From assembly GCF_003362725.1 (NCBI RefSeq), contig NZ_QKTV01000003.1, forward strand, positions 62,001-126,000: a stretch of 64,000 bases of DNA, in the 5' to 3' direction. The translations under genes and the position numbers were made by a program. This DNA comes from Winogradskyella aurantiaca. GTDB lineage: Bacteria; Bacteroidota; Bacteroidia; Flavobacteriales; Flavobacteriaceae. The notes beneath the pieces are model-generated. The model ran no database searches. It had not been told where the DNA came from and was given only the letters and a program-made list of their open reading frames with translations. This document shows positions 8,286-16,290 of this stretch, one piece after another (position 1 is the stretch's first letter; each line of letters begins with the position of its first letter).

Positions 8286-8885
8286 CTATTGATGTCTTGA
8301 TTCCAGAACTGAAACAACATCTTCTAAGGTAAAACCTTTCGCTTTAAGTAACATTAAATAATGAAATAACAAGTCTGCCCCTTCATTTAGAAATAAGTCG
8401 TCATTATTGTCCTTAGCCTCAATAACAATTTCAACCGCCTCCTCACCTACTTTCTGGGCAATTTTATTGATTCCTTTGGCAAATAGAGAAGCCACGTATG
8501 ATGATTGTGAATTGCCTTCAGCTACTCGTGAGTCAATAATTTCTTCTAGACGACTTAAAAATCCAAAGTCAGACTTGTTTTCTTCATACCAGCAGGTATC
8601 AGTACCAGTGTGACAGGTGGGGCCATTTGGTTGAACCTTAACCAATATGGTATCACCATCGCAATCAACTTTCATGTCAATTAATTTGAGAACATTACCA
8701 CTAGTCTCACCTTTGGTCCAAAGTCGGTTTTTGGAACGGGAAAAAAATGTAACCAATCCAGATACCTTTGTTTTTTCAAAAGCCTCTTCATTCATATAAC
8801 CAAGCATCAACACGGTTTTTGTAGTGTTGTCCTGAACAATTACCGGAACTAAACCGTCGCCATTTTTATTAAAATCTATAGTCAT
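8286..8885 (-). CDS. hisIE: Bifunctional phosphoribosyl-AMP cyclohydrolase / phosphoribosyl-ATP pyrophosphatase
   Basis: A 199-residue fusion that carries out steps 2 and 3 of histidine synthesis. The N-terminal HisI half (about 1-105) has the [18 protein letters not shown] and [10 protein letters not shown] motifs that bind metal and substrate; the C-terminal HisE half (about 110-199) has the [14 protein letters not shown] helix with the acidic pyrophosphatase residues. Both halves look intact. It overlaps hisF by four bases (8882-8885), so translation is probably coupled. Confidence 0.97.
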
Positions 8886-9637
8886 AATCTAACCTCTATA
8901 TCCTGTTCTTTAAGTTGTTTCTTTAATTCCATAATTGGAATTTCACCAAAATGGAATACACTAGCTGCCAATGCCGCGTCCGACTTTCCTTCTTTGAAAG
9001 TATCCACAAAATGTTGAACAGTACCCGCTCCACCAGAAGCTATGATAGGAATGTTTACCAAGTCAGACAATTTAGCTAGAGCCTTGTTTGCGAAGCCAGA
9101 TTTAGTTCCATCATGATTCATTGAGGTAAATAAAATTTCCCCTGCGCCTCGTAGTTCAACTTCTACAGCCCATTCAAATAATTTAAGGTCTGTTGGAATG
9201 GTCCCACCTGCCAGGTGCACGTACCATTCATCATCGATTTGTTTCGCATCTATGGCTGCAACGATGCATTGACTGCCAAATTTTTCAGACAATTCATTAA
9301 TTAAATCGGGGCGTTTCACTGCAGCGGAATTAATCGAGACTTTATCAGCACCACAATGCAACAGATCATCAACATCCTCTACCGAGGAAATTCCACCACC
9401 AACCGTAAACGGAATATTAACTTGCTCTGCTACCTTTAAAACCATGTCATGCATGGTCCTTCTGCGCTCTTGAGTCGCTGAAATATCTAAAAAAACCAAT
9501 TCGTCAGCGCCTAATTCCGCATACTGTTTAGCCAAAACCACCGGATCTCCAGCGTCCCTTAGGTCAACAAAATTAACCCCTTTTACGGTGCGGCCGTCTT
9601 TAATATCCAGGCAGGGTACAATTCTTTTTGTGAGCAT
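8882..9637 (-). CDS. hisF: Imidazole glycerol phosphate synthase, cyclase subunit
   Basis: A 251-residue (beta-alpha)8 barrel that closes the imidazole ring using ammonia from HisH, giving imidazole glycerol phosphate and AICAR. Catalytic Asp11 (CLDIKDG) and the second Asp in the AAIDAKQ segment near residue 130 are present, with the two phosphate-binding loops GGGISS and ASGGAG. Length is normal. One base separates it from hisA. Confidence 0.97.
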
Positions 9638-9638
9638 A

Positions 9639-10367
9639 CTAACTATTTGTAATTATAAAATTCTCCAACTCTTTAAGACTAATTCTGTTCTCATAAATTG
9701 CCTTCCCTATAATGACACCTTCGCATCCTAATTCTTCAAGTTGTGGTAATTCCTCAAACTTTGAAATACCTCCTGAAGCAATCAATTTAATACTTGGATT
9801 TCTTTTAAGTATAGCTTCATAAAGCGAAAAAGATGGCCCTTGAAGCATTCCATCCTTTGAGATGTCAGTACAAATTACATAGGTAATTCCTTTGGTCTCA
9901 TAGGATGCTATAAATGGAATTAGATCCAATTCACTATTTTCAAGCCATCCACTAGTTGCTATTTTGCCATCTTTTGCATCTGCGCCTAAAATTATTTTCT
10001 CAGAGCCATGAGTGTTTATCCAGCTTTCAAATAAACCAGGATCTTTAACAGCAATGCTTCCACCAGTAATTTGATTGGCACCGGATTCAAAGGCAATCTT
10101 CAGATCATTATTTGACTTTAATCCCCCACCAAAATCAATCTTTAGTCCAGTTCTTGTTGCAATGGCTTCCAGGACATTATAATTAACAATATGACTCGCC
10201 TTTGCACCATCAAGATCAACCAAATGCAGATACTCAATCCCAGAATCTTCAAAGGATTTGGCTACCTCTAATGGATCTTCATTGTAAACCTTTTTGGTAT
10301 TGTAATCTCCTTTAGTAAGTCTAACACATTTACCATCGATAATATCTATTGCAGGAATAATTCTCAT
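9639..10367 (-). CDS. hisA: ProFAR isomerase (1-(5-phosphoribosyl)-5-[(5-phosphoribosylamino)methylideneamino]imidazole-4-carboxamide isomerase)
   Basis: A 242-residue (beta-alpha)8 barrel for step 4. Catalytic Asp8 ([10 protein letters not shown]) and Asp in CTDISKDGM near residue 128 are visible, as are the GGGLKS and ASGGIS phosphate loops. Its sequence is related to, but clearly distinct from, the neighbouring HisF. One base separates it from both hisF and hisH. Confidence 0.97.
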
Positions 10368-10368
10368 A

Positions 10369-10950
10369 TTATAGATTTAAAAAGTTTTGAAGTAATTTTT
10401 CTCCAATTACACTACTTTTTTCAGGATGAAACTGTACACCAAAAAAATTATCATTCTCTAATGCAGAAGCATAGTTAAATCCATAATCTGTTGTGGCAAT
10501 CGATTCTTCACAATATTCGGCATAATAACTATGCACCAAATACATATAGCTACCTTCTTCTATATCCTTAAATAATGGTGACTTTAAGTCTTTAATAATA
10601 TTCCAGCCCATTTGAGGAACTTTCAAGTCATTTGAAAATCGTTTTACTTCGGTGTCAAATATTCCTAAACCAGTGGTATTCCCTTCTTCGGTATGGTTGC
10701 ACATCAGCTGCATTCCCAAACATATGCCTAATACTGGCTGTTTCAACTGGGGGATTAATGCATTAAGTCCGGATGCTTCTAACTTATTCATAGCAGATTT
10801 TGCTTCACCAACCCCCGGAAATATAACCTTGTCTGATTTTAGTATGTCTTCAGGGTCATCGGATAACTTTGCTTCAAAGCCTAAACGCTGAAAGGCAAAC
10901 TGAATGCTTTTAATATTTCCTGCCCCGTAATTAACAATCGATAATTTCAT
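10369..10950 (-). CDS. hisH: Imidazole glycerol phosphate synthase, glutamine amidotransferase subunit
   Basis: A 193-residue class I amidotransferase that supplies ammonia to HisF. The nucleophile Cys is in [11 protein letters not shown] (near residue 77) and the His and Glu of the triad are in VQFHPEKS near the C-terminus. Its start shares one base with the stop of hisB. Confidence 0.97.
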
Positions 10951-12083
10951 TAGAGTACTCCTTTTGTTGATGGTAAAATCATTTTTTCAACATCGCGCTT
11001 GACTGCCATCTTAAGAGCTTTAGCGAAAGCCTTGAATATCGCCTCAATTTTATGGTGTTCATTATCACCTTCAACTTTAATATTTAAGTTACATTTAGCC
11101 CCATCAGAAAACGACTTAAAGAAGTGGAAGAACATCTCTGTTGGCATTTTTCCAACCATTTCTCGTTTAAACTCCGCATCCCAAACAATCCAATTACGCC
11201 CACCAAAGTCTATAGATACCTGAGCTAATGAATCATCCATAGGCAGACTAAATCCATACCTTTCAATTCCTAATTTGTTACCAAGAGTAGTGGCAAAAAC
11301 CTCACCAAGTGCTATGGCGGTATCCTCTATGGTGTGATGTTCATCAACTTCTAAATCACCATCAACTTGAATATTTAAATCAATTTGACCATGGCGCGCA
11401 ATTTGATCTAGCATATGATCAAAAAAGGCAATTCCCGTATTGATTTGACTTTGGCCCGAACCGTCCAAATTAAGATCGATTTTAATTTTGGTTTCGTTAG
11501 TGTTGCGCTCAAAACTACCTATACGTTCTGTGGATTTTAAAAACTCATATATCTCCTTCCAATCATTAGTTTCAAGCGCTATATATGACGAAAGCTCATC
11601 ATTAGTCACAGTGACCTCATCCGATCCTAAATAGGTCTCATCATTGATATAAATTCCTTTTGAACCAAGATTCTTTGCCAATTCAACATCCGTTAAGCGG
11701 TCTCCAATTACAAATGAATTTTCAAGATCATAGTCACCGTTCATATAATGCATTAACAAGCCTGTATTAGGTTTTCTTGTAGGAGCATTATCTTTTGCAA
11801 ATGTTCTGTCAATTATTTGTTCAGAAAACACAACCCCTTCCTGTTCAAAAGTTTTCATGATAAAATTATGGACTGGCCAAAAAGAATCTTCGGGATATAC
11901 CTCAGTTCCCAGTCCATCCTGATTGGTGACCATGACCAATTCAAAATTCAATTCTTTGGCAATTTTCGACAGATATTGAAATACTTGAGGATAAAACTCA
12001 AGTTTCGAAAAACTGTCTATTTGCTCATCTTCAGGTTCACGAATAAGGGTTCCGTCTCGATCTATGAATAATATAGGTTTCAT
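10950..12083 (-). CDS. hisB: Bifunctional histidinol-phosphatase / imidazoleglycerol-phosphate dehydratase
   Basis: A 377-residue fusion for steps 6 and 8. The N-terminal HAD phosphatase (about 1-165) has Asp8 and Asp10 in FIDRDGT and the FVIGDRLTD motif; the C-terminal IGPD domain (about 185-377) has the metal-binding DEHHTIED and EHHKIEA motifs. The E. coli type of fusion is also common in Bacteroidota. It overlaps hisC by four bases. Confidence 0.97.
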
Positions 12084-13117
12084 TGTAACTCTTTTAATGC
12101 TTTAATAAGTGCTTTATTTTCTGTATTTGTACCCACTGTGAACCTTAAACAATTGTGACATAAAGGTTGGTTGGTTCTGTTTCGAACAACAATTCCTTTT
12201 GAAATAAGTTCTTTATATCGCATATTGGCGTCATCTACTCTTACCAGAATAAAGTTAGCATCAGACTTATAAACCTCATCAATAAATCCAATATCGTCAA
12301 GAGCTTCGAAAAGTTTTTTGCGGTCTTTTAGAATTGTATTCACTTCATCTTTAACATTGGTCAAGTCATTCAATCGTTCTAAAGCTTTCGTTTGTGTTAA
12401 CTGATTAACATTATAAGGCGGTTTAATTTTATTTAGAACAGATATTATAAACTCTGATGCAAAACAGATACCAAGCCTAATACCGGCCAAACCATAGGCC
12501 TTGGACAAAGTCTGCGTTACAATCAAATTAGGAAACTCATTTAATCGACTCAACCAACTCTGACGCGTTGAGAAATCGATATAAGCTTCATCAATAACTA
12601 CAATCCCTCTAAATTTGGCAATTAGTTGCTCCACTAGACTAGCATCAAAACTATTGGCCGTTGGGTTGTTTGGTGAACACAGAAACAGTAGTTTGGATTT
12701 ATTATTTTGGATCTTTAGAATCTCATTAACTTTTGGTTGGAAATTCGAATTAAGCTCAACCTTAATAATCTCTGCGGCATTTAAGTCCGCCAAAACAGAA
12801 TACATTCCATATGTTGGAGGTAATGTGATGACATTATCTTTATTTGGTTCACAAAAGGCACGAAAAATAAGATCAAGGACTTCATCGCTACCATTGCCAA
12901 GTAAGATTTGATTTTCTGGAACTCCTTTTATCTCTGATAGTCTCTTTTTAACTAAAGTTTGCTGGGGATCCGGGTAGCGATTAACCTCGGATTCAAATGG
13001 ATTCTCATTGGCATCAATAAAAACCATATCAGCCGAAGCGTCCTTGTATTCATCCCTAGCAGATGAATAGGCGGTAATTCCTTTTATGTTATCTCTGAGT
13101 AACGATTCGACAGTCAT
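12080..13117 (-). CDS. hisC: Histidinol-phosphate aminotransferase
   Basis: A 345-residue fold-type I PLP enzyme that makes histidinol phosphate from imidazole acetol phosphate and glutamate. The PLP lysine lies in [18 protein letters not shown] near the N-terminus and CSPNNPT in the middle are typical of HisC. It overlaps hisB and hisD by four bases each. Confidence 0.97.
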
Positions 13118-14400
13118 GACTTTAAATCCTTTAATCTTAAGCTTACTGCATTCTTGTGTGCGTCTAAGCCTTCAGCCTCAGCCATCAGTTCTATAGCACC
13201 ACCAATATTCTTAATACCTTCTTCGGATATTTTTTGAAAAGTCATACTTTTTTGAAAACTATCAAGGTTCACACCTGAATAGGCTTTAGAAAATCCGTTG
13301 GTAGGTAATGTGTGATTAGTACCTGAAGCATAGTCACCAGCACTTTCAGGAGTATAATTACCTATAAATACCGAACCAGCGTTTCCAATATTATCCACAA
13401 AATAGGAATCATTTGAGGTTGTAACAATAAAATGCTCTGGGCCATAATCATCTATAATTGTCAAGGCATCTTCAAAATTGGGAACAACTATGGTTCTTGA
13501 ATTTTCTATAGCGCGCTTTGCAATGTTTTTTCGAGGTAGATTCTGTAATTGATTATTAACTTCTTGACTCACTTCTTCGGCAAATGACTCTGAAGTTGTG
13601 ACTAAAATAACCTGACTATCTACCCCATGTTCCGCCTGACTCAAAAGGTCGGATGCTACATAACTAGCCTTGGCAGTTTCGTCCGCCATTACCAAGAGCT
13701 CACTTGGTCCTGCTGGCATATCAATAGCCACTCCATATTTGGTTGCCAATTGCTTTGCAACAGTCACATACTGGTTTCCAGGACCAAATATTTTATATAC
13801 CTGCGGTATGCTTTCTGTTCCGAAGGTCATTCCCGCAATGGCTTGGATACCTCCCACTTTAAAAACTTTGGTGACACCGCATAAACTGGCGGTATACAAT
13901 ATTTCATCTGCAAGTTCACCTTTTTCATTTGGTGGAGAACACAGAACAATCTCCTTTGATCCTGCAATTTTAGCAGGTACTGCTAACATTAGAACCGTAG
14001 AAAATAAAGGTGCTGTCCCACCTGGAATGTAAAGTCCCACTTTTTGAATAGGTCTTTTTTCTTGCCAACATTCTACACCTTTCATGGTATCAACTTTAAC
14101 TCTTTCTGATTTCTGGGCCTTGTGAAATGTTTCGATATTAGATTTAGCTAATTGAATAGCTGATTTCAACTCTGGACTTACTCTACTCGATGCTTTGCTT
14201 AATTCCTCAGCACTAACAACAAGGCTATCAAGATCTACCTCATCAAACTTAGACGTATAGTTTAACAGTGATTGGTCACCATTCTTTCTAACTTCATTGA
14301 AGATTTCGTCAACAGTTTGCTCTATATCATCTACGGTTTTAGTGGGACGCTCAAGCAGCTCTAGCAACAAACTCCTTTCAGGATTCTTATAGATCTTCAT
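13114..14400 (-). CDS. hisD: Histidinol dehydrogenase
   Basis: A 428-residue zinc enzyme that oxidises histidinol to histidine in two NAD-dependent steps. The signature region [14 protein letters not shown] and the [14 protein letters not shown] motif with zinc- and proton-transfer residues are intact, as is EHFIV. The length is normal. Start overlaps the stop of hisG by one base and its end overlaps hisC by four. Confidence 0.97.
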
Positions 14401-15257
14401 TATAGTACCATATTTTCAATTGGACATACCAAAATTCCTTCAGCCCCATTAGCCTTTAGCTCATCAATTACTTCCCAGAAGTCATTTTTATTGATAACAG
14501 AATGCAACGAACTCCAGCCTTCCTTAGCTAGTGGTAAAATGGTTGGAGAGTTCATACCTGGTAGTATTTTACAAATATCATCCAGCTTATCATTAGGAGC
14601 ATTTAGCAACACATACTTATTGGATCTACCTCTTAATACAGACTTTAATCTAAATTGGATCTTATCAATCAGGGCTTGTGATTCTGCGCTAATTGCTGGT
14701 GAGGTGGCCAATACTGCTTCAGATTTCAATAACATCTGAATTTCTTTTAGGCCATTCTTAAACAGCGTACTACCACTAGAAACTATATCACAAATAGCAT
14801 CTGCCAAACCAATATTAGGAGCAATCTCCACAGAACCATTGATTATGTGCAAATTGGCCTTAACTTCTGCTTTTTCAAGATACTGTTCAACTGTGTTTGG
14901 ATAGGAAGTGGCAATTCTTTTTCCTTCCAGATCTTTAAGATTTTCAGCATTGGAAGACTTTGGAACAGCGATAGATACCCGGCACTTGGAAAACCCTAAG
15001 CGTTCCACTATGGTTATGTCCTCACCTTTTTCTATAAGAACATTCTCTCCAATAATGGCAGCATCTACTACCCCATCTCTCAAATATTGAGGGATATCCC
15101 CATTTCTAAGGTAAAATACCTCTAATGGAAAATTTCTGGCAGAGGCCTTAAGTTGGTCTTTGCCATTATCAATGGAAATACCGATTTCTTTTAAAATCTT
15201 CATGGAATCGTCATGAAGACGTCCGGATTTTTGTACTGCAATTTTTAATTTACTCAT
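14400..15257 (-). CDS. hisG: ATP phosphoribosyltransferase, long form
   Basis: The first and committed enzyme of histidine synthesis, joining ATP and PRPP. At 285 residues it is the long form, with a C-terminal ACT-like domain (about residues 215-285) that gives feedback inhibition by histidine; no HisZ is therefore needed and none is seen. The DIVSSGSTLFKNGLKEI stretch holds the PRPP-binding loop. First structural gene after the his attenuator. The ATG at 15257 follows a purine-rich leader. Confidence 0.97.
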   Translation of the reverse strand: MSKLKIAVQKSGRLHDDSMKILKEIGISIDNGKDQLKASARNFPLEVFYLRNGDIPQYLRDGVVDAAIIGENVLIEKGEDITIVERLGFSKCRVSIAVPKSSNAENLKDLEGKRIATSYPNTVEQYLEKAEVKANLHIINGSVEIAPNIGLADAICDIVSSGSTLFKNGLKEIQMLLKSEAVLATSPAISAESQALIDKIQFRLKSVLRGRSNKYVLLNAPNDKLDDICKILPGMNSPTILPLAKEGWSSLHSVINKNDFWEVIDELKANGAEGILVCPIENMVL

Positions 15258-15275
15258 TTTTCTGTCTTAGTTGAA

Positions 15276-15313
15276 AACATCAAATGTTAGAAATAAAAAA
15301 CCCATTTGATGTT
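15276..15313 (-). promoter_or_regulatory. Alternative hairpin between his terminator and hisG
   Basis: AACATCAAATG (15276-15286) is the exact reverse complement of CATTTGATGTT (15303-15313). The second arm includes part of the terminator stem, so this hairpin and the terminator exclude each other. Because it forms only after the terminator has been transcribed, it could act on readthrough RNA near the hisG start. Role inferred. Confidence 0.45.
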
Positions 15314-15326
15314 CTCAAACGGGTTT
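15291..15326 (-). terminator. his attenuator terminator
   Basis: On the minus strand AAACCCGTTTGA (15326-15315), a five-base loop and TCAAATGGGTTT (15309-15298) form a 12-position stem with one mismatch, followed by TTTTTTATTT. It lies between the leader peptide and hisG, as expected for transcription attenuation. Confidence 0.85.
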
Positions 15327-15370
15327 AAAATATCTATTGATTTTATTCAATACATTTCTAACTCGCTTGA
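15315..15370 (-). promoter_or_regulatory. his antiterminator pairing
   Basis: The end of the leader reading frame (15370-15360, codons for Gln-Ala-Ser and the stop) can pair with the 5' arm of the terminator (15315-15325) over 11 positions, with one A-C mismatch and one G-U pair. A ribosome stalled at the His codons would leave this segment free; a ribosome reaching the TAG would cover it. An enclosing 8-base stem, 15377-15384 with 15346-15353, could hold the segment when no ribosome is stalled. Confidence 0.7.
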
Positions 15371-15414
15371 GTGCAAGTATTGAAATGATGATGATGTAAT
15401 TGAATAAAACTCAT
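15358..15414 (-). CDS. hisL: His operon leader peptide with four His codons
   Basis: A short frame encoding MSFIQLHHHHFNTCTQAS then TAG. Residues 7-10 are four consecutive His codons (CAT). It lies upstream of hisG, ends just before the antiterminator and terminator segments, and is too short to be a normal protein. Its role is to measure charged tRNA-His by ribosome stalling, as in enteric his leaders. The E. coli peptide has seven His codons in a row, so four is a weaker but typical sensor. The symbol is given by analogy of position and function. Confidence 0.88.
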   Translation of the reverse strand: MSFIQLHHHHFNTCTQAS

Positions 15415-15477: not shown

Positions 15478-16290
15478 TTATTGATTACCTAAAATAATTG
15501 GCATACCTGATTCACCTGATCCAATGATTACCACCTTTGAATTTGGTGATTCCGCCAGTTTATTTGTTGCCTCAATCCCCTTATCCTGGAGGATTTTATC
15601 AGTTAATGACGCACTTAAAATTTTATTAGCATCGGCTTTACCCTGCGCTTCTATACGTTGTTTTTCGGCCTCTTTTTGAGCTGTTACTAATCTAAACTCA
15701 TATTCTAGAGATTCCTGCTCTTGTTTCAATTTACGCTCTATAGCCTGCTTAATGGTTGGAGGCAATTGAACATCCTCGACCAACACTCTTTTAACAATTA
15801 AGTATTGTCCATTTAGAAGCTTAGTAACTTCGTCTAAAATTTCTTGTTCGATAACATCTCGTTTACTTGAATACAATTGCTCTGGAGTGTAACGCCCTAC
15901 AACAGATCTAGCAGCTGCATTAATTGCAGGATCTAGAAGTTCATGTTCATAATCTTCACCTTTAGTTTTAATTAAATTGCCTAAGTTACTATACTCCGGT
16001 TCATACCAAATTGTACCATTAACTTTTACTTCTAATCCATTAACGGATAATACATTCATGTTATCCGAAACAGATTGCTGTCTAACTTTTCTAATTATCA
16101 TTTCATTCCAAGGAGCCACAATATGAAATCCCTCTCCGTAGGTCTTTTCGGTGTTTATTCCATCTCCAAACCGCTCAAAAATTACACCGCCCTCACCTGG
16201 GCCAATAGTCACAGCTGATTTTGCAACTAAAATTATTAAGAACACTATTCCAATTAATATTGGAAGACCAACTTTTGGTAATTTATCCAT
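15478..16290 (-). CDS. Prohibitin-family SPFH (band 7) membrane protein
   Basis: A 270-residue protein with one N-terminal membrane helix (about 8-25), an SPFH/band 7 domain (about 28-200, including GPGEGGVIFERFGDG near the start) and a charged coiled coil (LEYEFRLVTAQKEAEKQRIEAQ shown in part, near 190-215). Prohibitins form large rings or scaffolds in the membrane and often work with FtsH-type proteases. It follows the vWA gene by 11 bases and is the last gene of a fabG-vWA-SPFH unit. Confidence 0.85.
   Translation of the reverse strand: MDKLPKVGLPILIGIVFLIILVAKSAVTIGPGEGGVIFERFGDGINTEKTYGEGFHIVAPWNEMIIRKVRQQSVSDNMNVLSVNGLEVKVNGTIWYEPEYSNLGNLIKTKGEDYEHELLDPAINAAARSVVGRYTPEQLYSSKRDVIEQEILDEVTKLLNGQYLIVKRVLVEDVQLPPTIKQAIERKLKQEQESLEYEFRLVTAQKEAEKQRIEAQGKADANKILSASLTDKILQDKGIEATNKLAESPNSKVVIIGSGESGMPIILGNQ

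Follow-up and report, generated by a model that had tools for sequence, protein, structure and literature searches.

A predicted ribosome-mediated histidine attenuator in Winogradskyella aurantiaca and a covarying segment between its terminator and hisG

The his operon of the flavobacterium Winogradskyella aurantiaca is very probably (about 0.93 by our estimate) controlled by a His-tRNA-responsive, ribosome-mediated transcription attenuator. We analysed a stretch of 64,000 nucleotides, hereafter the window, in which a preliminary description had claimed a complete histidine attenuator in a flavobacterium. In agreement with that claim, the leader, the antiterminator and the terminator proved to be conserved and to covary in homologues. 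The parts of the attenuator, their order, their spacing and their covariation were observed directly. By analogy to the established his and trp mechanism of E. coli and Salmonella, we propose where the ribosome sits and how the switch would respond to histidine.

The leader region of the his operon

The features of the region are listed below in the direction of transcription.

15358-15414, minus strand: leader ORF MSFIQLHHHHFNTCTQAS, 18 aa; homologous His-run ORFs lie upstream of hisG
15399-15410, minus strand: segment A, in the 5' part of the leader ORF; 12 bp with A', predicted protector stem in untranslated RNA (fold and A:A' covariation)
15385-15396, minus strand: four putative regulatory His codons, CAT ×4, read in the sequence; CAT is also usual in homologues
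15360-15371, minus strand: segment B, 5' strand of the antiterminator, covering the final codons of the leader and its stop; B:C score of 22 in the window
15340-15351, minus strand: segment A', partner of A, directly past the leader stop codon (fold and A:A' covariation)
15315-15326, minus strand: segment C, terminator 5' arm, common to B, D and, in part, E (pairing and covariation)
15310-15314, minus strand: terminator loop GAACA, variable among lineages and covarying with E (loop:E comparisons)
15298-15309, minus strand: segment D, terminator 3' arm (terminator scan and C:D covariation)
15291-15300, minus strand: T tract of the terminator, overlapping the end of D (read in the sequence)
15271-15286, minus strand: segment E, complementary to the terminator 5' arm and loop (dinucleotide shuffles and family covariation)
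14400-15257, minus strand: hisG, first gene of the operon under the predicted control (TIGR00070, 186 bits, and TIGR03455)
8286-14400, minus strand: remainder of the operon, hisD-hisC-hisB (bifunctional)-hisH-hisA-hisF-hisIE (NCBIfam models above cut-offs)

Behind the attenuator lie eight genes in the order hisG-hisD-hisC-hisB-hisH-hisA-hisF-hisIE, all above the NCBIfam cut-offs; hisG does follow the terminator, as had been stated. The nearest named HisG proteins are from Winogradskyella and from Flavobacteriales bacterium ALC-1, at 86-90% identity (loci L032-L057). The 18-residue leader peptide with four consecutive His codons was found as first described, in an ORF running from 15414 to 15358 with the CAT codons at 15396-15385, and a 31-nt spacer separates this ORF from the terminator. 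A run of four His codons occurred once in the window, as compared to 0.16 expected, and 58 times in the whole genome, as compared to 11 matches to the reversed pattern. Four consecutive His codons are therefore not rare enough on their own, and we dropped the run as stand-alone proof of an attenuator; the proof lies in conservation among homologues.

A co-directional ORF (15478-16290, minus strand), which we take to encode an SPFH/prohibitin-type protein, ends 63 nt before the leader. Because the scan listed no terminator-like site between the two on that strand, read-through from this ORF into the attenuator is possible. A flavobacterial −33/−7 promoter consensus was matched upstream of 14 of 112 leaders and in 18 of 2240 shuffled sequences; with no match in the window, it was not retained as a feature of the leader.

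The terminator comprises 12 pairs over 15326-15298, followed by a T tract to 15291 (minus strand). It had been described as strong, and its stem was indeed the longest in a scan of 11.5 kb that gave 10 terminator-like sites. Shuffled sequences yielded 6.8 such sites, so that a site of this type is by itself not rare. The antiterminator pairing put forward earlier, of 15360-15370 with 15315-15325, could be read directly; its 11 positions include one G-U pair and a single mismatch, A-C. According to structure prediction, the fold of the leader RNA surpassed those of all 200 shuffles (z −5.36).

Conservation, covariation and the proposed switch

Leader ORFs upstream of hisG were scored under two criteria. 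Under the strict criterion (ATG start, HH, at least three His, within 260 nt), a His-run leader was present in 183 of 189 non-duplicate upstream regions (loci L002-L193) and in 14 of 1890 shuffled ones, as expected if His codons are kept in homologous leaders. Under the loose criterion (any HH or H-x-H, GTG and TTG starts allowed, 400 nt), a short ORF was present in 159 of 164 upstream regions; 80 of the 164 came from named loci and 82 from relatives, and the window's own region was counted as two overlapping copies. The usual form of the peptide was M-x-F-I-Q-L-H-H-H-H-F-H-T-C-T-Q-A-S, and the His codons of 113 homologous leaders were CAT in 469 cases and CAC in 30. The six upstream regions in which no strict His leader was found were those of L023, which has 118 nt upstream before the contig end, L130, L153 and L158-L160. 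The last three belong to genomes of ∼0.6 Mb that possess hisG and lack the leader; judged by their size, these look like genomes of obligate endosymbionts. At another locus, L006, the leader is shortened by a TAA in place of a Gln codon (MKFIQSHHHHHHICT). By eye, B still pairs there, with a G-U, and the RNA rather than the end of the peptide seems to have been kept.

In the covariation analysis, each segment was scored against its own partner and against partners permuted among loci, a control in which relatedness among the loci remains. The 249 non-duplicate loci were narrowed to 213 with a terminator score of at least 30, to 174 with at least 30 nt to hisG, to 147 by dereplication and to 113 by filtering. 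Across these 113 selected leaders, matched scores exceeded permuted ones for A:A' (18.05 versus a mean of 16.07), B:C (18.83 versus 17.96) and C:D (28.63 versus a mean of 25.02). In each case, none of 2000 permutations reached the matched score, in keeping with the covariation anticipated for homologues. The A:A' score was at least 14 in 93 of the 113 leaders. A B:C score of at least 14 was found in 112 of the 113, a figure conditional on filters, one of which was a peptide pattern that overlaps segment B. Without the peptide filter, B:C scored 18.43 as compared to a permuted mean of 16.66 (0/2000), and among the 182 leaders that have a terminator, 173 scored at least 14 and nine fell below it. 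At loci in which C reads GUCUGA instead of GUUUGA, the matching G was present in D (11/11), in E (11/11) and in every B that was found (6/6); B was not found in five of the 11, and one of the six came from a G-only pattern.

The preliminary description had assigned the role of holding the antiterminator segment to an 8-base stem, 15384-15377 with 15353-15346. The complementarity is present in the window, but the equivalent pairing, between the sequence that follows the His run and the spacer past the stop codon, did not covary in the 113 leaders: the matched score was 10.56 and the permuted score 10.64, with 1458 of 2000 permutations reaching the former. We therefore dropped this stem as the protector. 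The stem able to hold the antiterminator segment is the covarying one, formed by the 5' end of the leader (15410-15399) and the sequence past its stop codon (15351-15340).

The region thus contains the elements of a His-type attenuator, namely a leader ORF, a terminator, a mutually exclusive antiterminator pairing with the right spacing and a protector stem. In 96 of the 112 leaders with a B:C score of at least 14, B starts 12-14 nt past the His run. This distance fits the usual footprint of a ribosome: it would leave B free during a stall, and a ribosome at the stop codon would cover B.

In the proposed switch, scarcity of charged His-tRNA would stall the ribosome in the CAU run, where it would cover A and leave B, which starts ∼12 nt further on, free. 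B would then pair with the terminator arm, C, and RNA polymerase would continue into the operon. When His-tRNA is ample, a ribosome at the stop codon would sit on B, the C:D terminator would form and transcription would end. If the leader is untranslated, A:A' would form and enclose B, again allowing the terminator to form.

According to equilibrium ensembles for the window (L002), the probability of C:D was 0.99 in untranslated RNA, 0.71 with the ribosome stalled at His and 0.99 with the ribosome at the stop codon. Across 113 leaders in the stalled state, the mean probabilities were 0.89 for C:D and 0.05 for B:C, and the terminator was dominant in most. Given this dominance at equilibrium during a stall, antitermination would need to be under kinetic control, as attenuator decisions usually are.

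We weighed two other accounts of this region. An ordinary untranslated leader, in which the His run arose by chance and the terminator serves the gene upstream, would be consistent with the weakness of a His run alone as evidence and with the co-directional ORF that ends at 15478, after which the scan listed no terminator-like site on that strand before the leader. However, the parts are conserved and covary, and His-run ORFs recur outside the order (39/60, versus 23/1200 shuffled), so that we consider this account very improbable. As for control of hisG by a T-box or another known riboswitch family, no Rfam covariance model reached its gathering score in the window. The leader region gave 25 matches at E ≤ 10, all under gathering scores, among which there was neither a T-box nor the gammaproteobacterial His leader, a family that we take to be RF00514. 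The Trp leader model reached 16.5 of 41 bits, far under its cut-off. We give such control next to no credence. The Rfam results also bear out the earlier remark that the parts are built from unrelated sequence.

If the attenuator reading holds, it has a wider implication. Leader-peptide attenuation requires a ribosome that closely trails RNA polymerase and a leader that is translated efficiently. In Bacteroidota, translation starts largely without Shine-Dalgarno pairing. A widespread, covarying His attenuator would mean that transcription-translation coupling is tight enough in this phylum, and it offers a ready reporter with which to test that coupling.

Segment E between the terminator and hisG

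The preliminary description did not include segment E (15286-15271), an extra partner of the terminator arm whose 3' end lies 13 nt before the hisG ATG in the window. The part of E at 15281-15271, GATGTTTTCAA, pairs with TTGAGAACATC, a match reached by none of 100 dinucleotide shuffles, and CATTTGATGTTTTC pairs further with GAGAACATCAAATG. Among 163 loci tested, the observed score was reached by at most one of 100 shuffles in 101 and by at least 50 of 100 in 19. The C:E score was below 20 in 55 of the 174 loci with room for E. In the 119 with a score of at least 20, the 3' end of E was 13-16 nt from the hisG ATG in 64, and E was 29-49 nt away in 21. At L044, L051 and L055, where this distance is 29-36 nt, an extra small hairpin seems, by eye, to have been inserted before the start codon.

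The terminator loop differs among lineages, and E tracks its variants (GTTTGAGTAAATC/GATTTACTCAAAC, GTTTGAGACAATC/GATTGTTTCAAAC, GTTTGAGAATATC/GATATTTTTAAAC and GTCTGAATAAATC/GGTTTATTCAGAC). In a set of 158 core-motif loci, each of 48 loop types being represented once, the matched loop:E score was 13.77, as compared to a permuted mean of 10.55 and a maximum of 11.83 (0/5000). For the analyses by loop column, E was anchored on its stem part only; pairing was then found at each of the six loop columns in 99-116 of 131 loci. Of the loop cells in 110 distinct rows, 83% were paired, as compared to 26-41% when E was slid by 1-3 columns and to a mean of 60% (maximum 65%) when partners were shuffled. 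On a FastTree phylogeny of HisG proteins, the Watson-Crick pair type had changed at least 5-11 times per loop column. A tree-based sign test of loop column 8 comprised six independent pairs, too few to reach significance (median p 0.125); on average, E differed in the same way in 3.6 of these, in the other way in 0.0 and not at all in 2.4. The claim of covariation between E and the loop is carried by the permutation and slide controls, in which relatedness among the loci remains.

When E was placed by best complementarity, as in the GUCUGA comparison and in the same set of 167 core-motif loci, 1758 cells contained 153 G-U pairs and 114 mismatches. This retention of G-U pairs disfavours a DNA-level inverted repeat as the explanation of E. 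Overall, the covariation of E with C and with the loop indicates that the pairing of C and loop with E is under selection.

E is made after the terminator and so cannot influence that termination event. Another role is therefore required, and the proximity of E to the hisG ATG suggests a part in initiating translation or in the fate of the mRNA. Once transcription has read through, E, which closely precedes the start region of hisG, could pair with C and the loop. At equilibrium, C:E was seldom populated (mean probability 0.03-0.05), and E as a thermodynamically dominant structure is unsupported. We also rejected a 'lock' by which E would generally raise B:C: in 87 leaders, the mean for B:C pairs was 0.38 with E and 0.34 with E blocked, hardly a difference. 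Most likely, E would provide a second, post-transcriptional layer. Our best guess is that, through E, the state of the leader would also bear on how hisG is translated or on what becomes of the read-through mRNA.

This second layer may take more than one form. The leader-controlled terminator arm may also decide a helix upstream of the hisG ribosome-binding region and, with it, hisG translation, a possibility to which we assign somewhat less than even odds. It is consistent with the covariation of E with C and the loop, with the 64 of 119 loci in which E ends 13-16 nt from the ATG, and with C being common to E, B and D. Moreover, when B:C was forced in the window RNA, the fold had −32.8 kcal/mol with E paired to the loop and D, and the C:D fold, at −35.2 kcal/mol, was 2.4 lower. 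On the other hand, the ensembles gave just the low C:E probabilities stated above, the helix stops short of the start-codon region, and 21 of the 119 loci have E far from the ATG. That one stalled ribosome would set both transcription of the operon and translation or stability of hisG is a proposal that we make tentatively and consider rather doubtful. We think it unlikely that E is instead an RNA-fate or trans element, either as a duplex that directs an RNase or shields the read-through mRNA, or as a landing site for the terminated leader as an sRNA. The retained G-U pairs would suit such an element insofar as they point to RNA rather than DNA, yet the cis partner is always on the same RNA. 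A precedent would be a trp attenuator RNA of Sinorhizobium, which reportedly acts in trans. PMC7298713 concerns the trp leader peptide. Whatever its role, segment E is a clean, covarying part of a textbook switch.

Range in Bacteroidota and comparison with known attenuators

In other orders of the phylum, a His leader was present in 39 of 60 hisG upstream regions, hand-picked from a ranked phylum-level sample. A downstream terminator accompanied 26 of the 39, and in 19 of these 26 the B:C score was reached by at most 5 of 100 shuffles. Just one of the 26 had a C:E score of at least 20. These sequence data indicate that the attenuator is widespread in Bacteroidota and that E is mostly a feature of hisG in Flavobacteriales. 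The other 13 of the 39 leaders had no terminator above the score cut (L198, L205, L212, L215, L218, L224, L226, L228-L230, L236, L238 and L246); some of these may have a different output, such as occlusion of the ribosome-binding site.

Other amino-acid operons were also surveyed. A Trp-run ORF preceded trpE in 17 of 19 loci from relatives (L286-L304). The trpE of the same genome as the window (L292) has the Trp leader MKKLNQHTWWWNAYDS, with three consecutive Trp codons; its stop codon is 86 nt before trpE, and a terminator comes after it. Upstream of pheA, an ORF with a run of at least three Phe, such as MSNQYFFNGFYFYFFFKRGMGPL, was present in 16 of 30 loci (L316-L345), two of them doubtful by distance, and the terminators found were 4-61 nt from the gene. 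The same scan found no Phe-rich ORF at the genome's own pheA (L333). A scan before thrA, uninformative because 13 of the 30 loci entered it without a coding frame and with start sites unchecked, reported no Thr/Ile-run ORF; the 230 bases examined upstream of the genome's own ilvE-like gene and ilvD contained no leader ORF. None of the terminators found at the 19 trpE and 30 pheA loci had a C:E score above 15. The idea that flavobacterial attenuators carry E in general was dropped, E not being seen for trp and phe.

His attenuation is established in enteric bacteria (E. coli and Salmonella), in which the E. coli attenuator has a segment set A-F. The W. aurantiaca region resembles the enteric one in its His-codon leader, protector stem, antiterminator, intrinsic terminator before hisG and logic. 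By contrast, it has no covariance-model match and fewer segments, and carries the extra segment E between the terminator and hisG. Attenuators in Bacteroidetes/Chlorobi were reportedly predicted by Vitreschak et al. in 2004. We know of no described attenuator with a covarying post-terminator arm that reaches the terminator loop. Among the literature matches listed, which comprised titles and abstract openings and few subscription journals, no post-terminator arm like E was described.

The closest report is PMC9723704 (ISME Commun 2021), whose covered section describes, for Flavobacterium psychrophilum and other Flavobacteriaceae, a structured 5' element that is transcribed and lies before hisG. 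Such elements are noted there for both hisG and pheA, with conservation in further genera and no Rfam hits, and the section speaks of 'strong clues' for leader-peptide attenuation in amino-acid biosynthesis operons. The hisG element thus concerns the same gene in the same bacterial family, is transcribed and lacks Rfam hits. Since it is already in print, the hisG attenuator is of a known kind; as compared to that section, the anatomy at hisG, the covariation, the range in the phylum and segment E are added here. In the covered text of PMC8305728, on the his genes of Bacteroidota, 'leader' does not occur and the one mention of 'attenuat' concerns enterics. The covered text of PMC7366714, on the Bacteroides thetaiotaomicron transcriptome, reports ORFs in 5' UTRs reminiscent of leader peptides and contains neither 'histidine' nor 'hisG'. 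The portions covered of PMC1262725 and PMC4833913 contain nothing on his leaders of Bacteroidota.

As described in the covered part of PMC9413887, his attenuators of Firmicutes have 3-5 consecutive His codons and alternative terminator and antiterminator structures, a layout like that found here in other bacteria, the likeness being one of description only. The same source describes translational attenuators in which a structure sequestering the ribosome-binding site takes the place of the terminator. Their output would be similar to that of the hisG switch if E acts on hisG initiation. Unlike them, the hisG switch keeps its terminator, whose arm gains a further partner in E. The attenuator is therefore of a known kind, well resolved here, and segment E looks new.
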